A stretch of DNA of 64,000 nt from Modestobacter sp. L9-4 (lineage in GTDB: Bacteria; Actinomycetota; Actinomycetes; Mycobacteriales; Geodermatophilaceae), in NCBI RefSeq assembly GCF_019112525.1, contig NZ_CP077800.1:310001-374000 (forward strand). The letters run 5' to 3'. A program made the position numbers and the translations under genes. The notes under the pieces are model-generated. The model worked only from the letters and a program-made list of their open reading frames with translations. It did no database searches and had not been told where the DNA came from. How positions within the stretch are numbered: the stretch's first letter is position 1; the number at the start of each line of letters is the position of its first letter. This document shows positions 17,994 to 19,035 of this stretch, piece after piece.

Positions 17994-18091
17994 GGGGGGG
18001 GGGGGGGGGGGTGGGGGGGGGGGGGAGGGGGGGGGGGGGGGGGGGAGGGGGGGGGGGGGGGGGGGGGGGGGGGGGGCGGGGGGGGGGGGGG
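17994..18091. repeat. 98-nt poly-G tract, probable artefact
   Basis: Of 98 bases only four are not G (T at 18012, A at 18026 and 18046, C at 18077). It starts in mid-codon of aztD. A homopolymer of this length is not expected in a bacterial chromosome; base callers that read absence of signal as G produce exactly this. Confidence 0.85.
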
Positions 18092-19035
18092 AAACGCGAG
18101 ACCACGTGAGTGTGGCGTGTTGTGAATATAAATTAGATGTGAGAATACATACACGAATAGATATAAAACAAAAATTAAAAATAGCTAAAATAATAGTAAC
18201 ACACACATGACATTGTGTGAAACCAATAGAAAACGCACATGAGGCGCAATGAATAAGGAAAGATAGAAATTAAATCAGATCAAAAGAATTCTATCTCTCT
18301 AACGCGACGCACAGAATAGAGTAGAAGAGATCAGGCGGACATAGAGATCTCTCTATATATATGACACAATATAACGCAAGATAGTGCTACAGAACATAAG
18401 CTAGAGTGAGTAGAGCTGATCAATCTCTCTCATATAGAAACTACATAGCTAGGAAGAGGGAGGGAGGTACATAAGGAAAAGGATAGAATATGAAGAGTTT
18501 TGAAGAGTAGGGAATATAAAAGAGTGGGTATCGCGATGAGTAAAAGAGGGTATTTGTTTAGAAGAAGGAAAAGGAGTAATAGGGGTTAAATGAGTGAAAA
18601 GTATAAGAGTGGAAAGGAGGGTGTAGTGATAAAAGAGTGTAGGGGGTAAAATAAGAGGGGGAGAAAGATAAAAGAGGGTAAAGAATTAAAAATAAATGAG
18701 TTGTATAAGGATTGATGAATATAGTAGAGAATAAATGAATGGGAGGGAGTAGGGATGAGGGATAAGTTAGAATTATGGATATTGGATAATGATGAATGAA
18801 GTTAAGAAGAGGGGAAGATGATGGAGAATGTGGGATAAGAACAAGAGAAGTAACGAATGAAATAGGAAAAAGTTAGTGTAGTAGAAAAAAGAATGAATAG
18901 AATAAAAGAATGAAGATGAAGTGGATAGTTGTGTAAATAAAGGAAGAAGTGAGAAGAATGAGAGGATGATATGAAGGGGAAATAGTAAGAAATAGGGGTG
19001 AAGAGAAGTGGTAGGTTAGTAAGGAGGAAGTGAAG
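18092..19035. other. anomalous AT-rich, C-depleted block, probable artefact
   Basis: About 944 bases unlike the rest of the window: low GC, purine-rich, and almost devoid of C in the distal half (no C from 18535 to 18841, and none from 18855 through 19037). No start-plus-ribosome-site, codon bias, tRNA, inverted terminal repeat, target duplication or known motif is visible. Open frames through it (for example minus strand 18802-19035) exist only because the complement is pyrimidine-rich. It truncates aztC on one side and, via the poly-G tract, aztD on the other. Most likely a low-quality consensus; a true AT-rich insertion is the less likely alternative. Confidence 0.75.

Follow-up and report, generated by a model that had tools for sequence, protein, structure and literature searches.

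A C-depleted block over aztC and aztD in the finished genome of Modestobacter sp. L9-4, almost certainly a sequencing and assembly artefact

Extent and composition of the block

The question raised by this locus is whether about a kilobase of near-pure G followed by AT-rich, C-poor DNA, lying within a GC-rich operon of Modestobacter sp. L9-4, belongs to the organism or to the way in which its genome was read. Across the window (the whole 64,000-nt stretch of DNA analysed), the GC content is 0.406 in the bin 18001–19000 and 0.68–0.79 in the remaining 63 bins, and the lowest 100-nt value within the block is 0.23–0.24. The first-pass annotation had described a 98-nt tract with four non-G bases, followed by C-free runs at 18535–18841 and 18855–19037. 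The base count of the tract was reproduced, and the coordinates of the two runs (307 and 183 nt) proved exact; outside the block, the longest C-free run of the window is 19 nt (21748–21766), and outside the tract its longest G run is 6. G runs of at least 14 were sought on both strands of the whole 4,224,113-base, one-contig genome, giving 29 overlapping matches that all lie inside this tract, and no second copy of the block was recovered by DNA search of the same genome. The anomaly is therefore confirmed, with its borders corrected by comparison with a sister species (described below) to those given here, together with the three zones into which the block divides:

17983–19031 (+): full extent of the disturbance, 1049 nt where the sister has about 1003 bp; the alignment to the sister (L004) breaks off after 17982 and is taken up again at 19032
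17994–18091 (+): zone 1, near-pure G tract (base count, 94 G of 98 nt)
18092–18460 (+): zone 2, AT-rich, with few homopolymers and alternating letters (lag-1 z −4.4, lag-2 z +5.6)
18461–19031 (+): zone 3, A, G and T with about 1% C, in near-random order (all |z| ≤ 2.6 over 39 lags)

In the C-poor portion that follows the G tract, A, G and T occur at about 45/34/20. Zone 3 carries 20–25 stop codons in each forward frame vs 2–4 in each reverse frame, and includes a 104-aa low-complexity open frame on the minus strand (18558–18872); its open minus-strand frames are ascribed to base composition. Zone 2 contains three copies of the word ATCTCTC, far more than a first-order model predicts for that word, although some 7-mer occurring three times is common (P 0.39), and the triplet is taken as part of the stutter of this zone.

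Searches with the letters of the block returned little. For 18092–19035, the phage and plasmid matches were just fragments of 28–45 nt with E values of 0.3–0.9 (three phage and four plasmid records), which are taken as chance, and comparison with E. coli genomes gave no match. One 30-base piece of the block, searched for exact matches, was absent from IMG/VR, and a scan against Rfam gave no family at gathering level. The CRISPR-DR60 family reached 21.9 bits against a gathering threshold of 45 (E 0.47) and was dismissed as a chance match. Eight public adapter and primer sequences were also compared on both strands; over the 16 comparisons the lowest P was 0.06, and none stood out clearly from chance.

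Sequencing is known to produce poly-G tails and artefacts at contig ends, and the block has in common with both a long near-pure G (or C) run, but differs in that its run is internal to a one-contig chromosome and placed over genes. Within the order, 72 of 397 genomes, counting the present one, contain a G run of at least 28, and 30 of the corresponding loci, one per genome, were opened (L067–L096). At ten of the 30 the available stretch ends no more than 200 bases away, which limits the flank on one side; among the rest are loci internal to contigs, with GC-rich flanks. Excluding the present locus, the other 29 have no C- or G-free run longer than 55 nt and no 100-nt GC value below 0.44 in flanks of up to 1.5 kb per side (less at ends), whereas the values here are 307 nt and 0.24.

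The coding sequence missing from the site

The genes on either side of the block are both incomplete, and each is cut on the side that faces it:

17383–17988 (−): truncated aztD, C-terminal 202 codons only (NF038015, profile positions 156–356 of 356)
19036–19629 (−): truncated aztC, N-terminal 198 codons only (PF01297 and NF040870, profile positions 1–174 of 277)

The outermost aztD codons, adjoining the block, are already doubtful. Beyond aztC, a further frame on the minus strand (19626–21158), which by eye resembles a secreted repeat protein, is open in the sister species as well.

The closest genome found was that of this sister species (G010), with 88% identity in AztC. Its flanks align at 91.5 and 90.7% identity, reaching window positions 17982 and 19032, and in the last alignment bins before the block, of 44 and 50 bases, identity is 95 and 94%, respectively. 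The intervening 1003 bp of the sister are ordinary DNA and code for the remainder of AztC together with the beginning of AztD. Its AztC is full length (profile positions 1–277 of 277, 363.8 bits, cut-off 350). Its AztD piece runs into the end of the locus; the match begins at profile position 2 and, at 383.5 bits, falls short of the cut-off of 400. This is the comparison with the same locus in relatives that had been proposed as a check, and since 1003 bp of sister coding DNA is gone, the block replaces coding sequence and was not inserted into it. When these 1003 bp were searched against the 4.22-Mb assembly of L9-4, just four matches of 31–66 bp were found. The earlier statement that no gene is seen in the block thus stands for the letters themselves but not for the site, which overlies the 3′ part of aztC and the 5′ part of aztD.

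Of 49 relative loci fetched, 25 azt loci were examined, and both genes were present in 22 of these, with 869–1057 nt between protein anchors; at the remaining three, all from Acidimicrobiia, AztC alone was obtained. The distance from anchor to anchor is 1056 nt here, compared with 997–1009 nt for the closest seven loci, two of which apparently come from the same assembly; in all seven, aztC extends 104 residues beyond the break point. Ordinary sequence of similar length is what close relatives carry at this site. AztC identity is 69% to Blastococcus endophyticus and 66% to Blastococcus sp. TF02A-26. The locus resembles the AztABCD zinc transporter operon in its flanking gene pieces, assigned to AztC and AztD by NCBIfam, but differs in that both genes are cut here by the block, the sister having both. 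This operon, with the transfer of zinc from AztD to AztC, is described in PMC7463823.

Two further blocks and the loss of tsf from the assembly

The first-pass annotation had also stated that nothing else in 64 kb resembles the block, which is correct for the window but not for the genome. Sixty stretches of 20 kb were scanned together with the window, covering 1.264 Mb of the 4.22-Mb genome, for 100-nt segments with GC below 0.52. Of 29 such low-GC stretches, 26 have a minimum of at least 0.47 and no C- or G-free run above 24 nt; 18 of these milder stretches fall in two loci of near-identical layout (L097 and L128), which look like rRNA operons. The remaining three are the window block and two similar blocks:

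genome ~1,078,189–1,079,296 (L102, 18189–19296): second block, minimum GC 0.30, over the whole of tsf
genome ~1,497,234–1,497,793 (L104, 17234–17793): third block, in the opposite orientation and G-depleted on the + strand, minimum GC 0.33

The sister sequence is ordinary at both sites, and the lengths in L9-4 and in the sister are 1108 and 942 bp for the second block and 560 and 459 bp for the third. The excess over the replaced sister length is thus 46, 166, and 101 bp (5, 18, and 22%) for the window, second and third blocks, respectively. At the third block, a histidinol-phosphate aminotransferase gene (NF002878) has lost its N-terminal half in the assembly, the L9-4 piece matching positions 166–348 of 352 and the sister piece matching from position 12; both pieces are partial and below the cut-off. 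As a separate observation, the stretch 2,580,000–2,593,000 of G000 (L129) has seven local GC drops to 0.47–0.51 in a 75% GC genome with no base lost, and is perhaps an acquired island.

The three blocks share a layout. Read on its own strand, the early zone of each has alternating letters, the largest lag-2 z being +5.4 in the window block (after the G tract), +6.4 in the second and +7.5 in the third, and this value never exceeded +0.6 in 108 genuine 140-nt stretches of the window. In the late zone, C falls to 0–1% and the lag-2 excess is small or nil (z −2.4 to +1.7). A G tract in front is a feature of the window block. The best match between blocks, obtained with no low-complexity filter, is 56 nt long at 75% identity (E 7e-4), and this similarity is taken as composition. 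A shift in composition that runs in one direction, in either orientation and at unrelated loci, is in our inference the trace of a failing read.

The second block bears most directly on whether such sequence could exist in a living cell. Elongation factor EF-Ts is encoded by tsf, which is generally regarded as essential in bacteria and is intact in the sister (TIGR00116, 239.8 bits, cut-off 104). A search of the one-contig L9-4 assembly, scored as 99.98% complete, for EF-Ts (PF00889) found none, with control genomes positive in 10 of 14 cases. The domain was found in 29 of 33 genomes, the L9-4 genome being counted among the 33, and the misses were this genome and three that are 72–86% complete; among good genomes it was found in 26 of 27, with L9-4 as the sole miss. 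Because a gene held to be essential is missing exactly where the sister has it, in synteny, a defective sequence is far more likely than a viable chromosome with a completeness score of 99.98% and no EF-Ts.

The sequence replaced on the tsf side gave 29 short matches in the L9-4 genome, of which 18 are to one dispersed intergenic stretch and one is a true remnant. In the sister this intergenic stretch lies beside tsf (L173, ~458–511), its 18 matches being scattered over the L9-4 genome at 75–94% identity, and it may be a palindromic or terminator-like repeat. The remnant, which lies within the second block, is 39 bp of intergenic DNA that is 90% identical to the sister and is placed between inserted runs of CACACA and CTCTCT; entry into this block is gradual. 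For both the azt and the tsf parts, the replaced sequence is thus missing from the remaining assembly.

Origin of the blocks and consequences for users of the genome

Explanations in which the block would be real DNA, or DNA from elsewhere, were weighed, beginning with a genuine AT-rich segment (a mobile element, a phage remnant or horizontally acquired DNA) that was inserted or exchanged in the azt operon. Sharp edges and a strongly deviating composition would be expected of such a segment, but it would have to replace rather than interrupt, with 1003 bp of two genes gone and no host gene restored when the segment is removed. The DNA searches gave it no recognisable homologue, with nothing convincing among phages, plasmids or E. 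coli genomes, nothing for one exact 30-mer in IMG/VR and no Rfam family at gathering level. Nor does zone 3, with its many forward stops, have recognisable coding content, though its reverse frames are largely open. The near-random base order of zone 3 and the blocks of the same layout over other conserved genes, tsf included, also argue against it, and the insertion that the first-pass annotation had left open is now very unlikely, given the replacement and the sibling blocks. Sharp edges would also be expected if foreign DNA, whether contaminating or chimeric and whether from a cloning vector or another organism, had been joined in during assembly. In the searches, which covered phages, plasmids, E. 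coli genomes and, with one exact 30-mer, viral contigs, the phage and plasmid fragments were, however, chance-like and the other two gave nothing. A G tract that gives way to randomly ordered, C-free letters is unlike genomic DNA, and at all three places the block length is close to that of the local gap, all of which makes contamination scarcely credible.

Hypermutation or enzymatic modification of the resident DNA in the cell, the other possibility left open earlier, would account for a length near that of the resident DNA (1049 vs 1003) and for the loss of one base type. No single type of substitution, however, yields a G tract and then A, G and T at about 45/34/20, all three blocks exceed the resident length, and the remnant in the tsf block has stutter inserts and not substitutions, so that this explanation has likewise become very unlikely. 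That the blocks are real, and that some process in the strain replaces defined stretches, tsf included, with untemplated DNA in a fixed order, from a G tract or alternating letters to C-free sequence, is given only the slightest probability.

The window block is almost certainly an artefact of sequencing and assembly, and aztC and aztD are very probably intact at this site in the living strain. This reading is favoured because coding DNA has been replaced, the sister is intact, the replaced DNA is not found elsewhere in the assembly, sibling blocks with a common layout occur in the same genome and one of them has removed a needed gene, that for EF-Ts. It agrees with the base-calling or consensus failure proposed in the first-pass annotation, which is supported by the ordinary DNA of relatives, the absence of the replaced sequence from the assembly, the sibling blocks and the stuttered remnant. 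The evidence comes from three blocks, in 1.264 Mb of sampled genome.

Low-quality reads, either Sanger finishing reads or unpolished long reads, are used for gap closure in finished genomes, and the blocks share with such a read a length near that of the true gap, stutter, a composition that depends on position and an abrupt return to good sequence. Most likely, a gap of about 1 kb was bridged by a single failing read, or by very few, whose calls would then have entered the consensus. The direction of reading would be from the G tract or the stutter to the C-free end, such that a G run would have passed into alternating-letter stutter and then into near-random calls of A, G and T with C lost. 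Block lengths that are near to but over the true length fit insertion-prone calling. Later polishing would have been unable to correct the block, since it is unlike any other read and good reads could not be mapped there. The source could have been a Sanger finishing read or a single-molecule read that had not been polished. Alignment of the window block to the sister with a fitted 4 × 4 substitution table, controlled by 100 local shuffles and 100 unrelated stretches, recovered no residual true signal, but simulated power was barely present at 20% replaced bases and nil at 40% or more, and the result is given no weight in either direction. Our searches of the literature found no account of such an artefact, and no claim is made that it is unreported.

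The block is not a real biological feature, and a striking anomaly is thereby removed from candidate biology, its value being that of an assembly warning. A one-contig assembly scored as 99.98% complete can hold misread patches of 0.5–1.1 kb over conserved genes. The combination of a lost base type, alternating stutter and a conserved gene missing at a syntenic site may offer a screen for finished genomes. Users of this genome would otherwise be misled into recording EF-Ts as missing from Modestobacter sp. L9-4, and its AztC, AztD and one histidinol-phosphate aminotransferase gene as broken.
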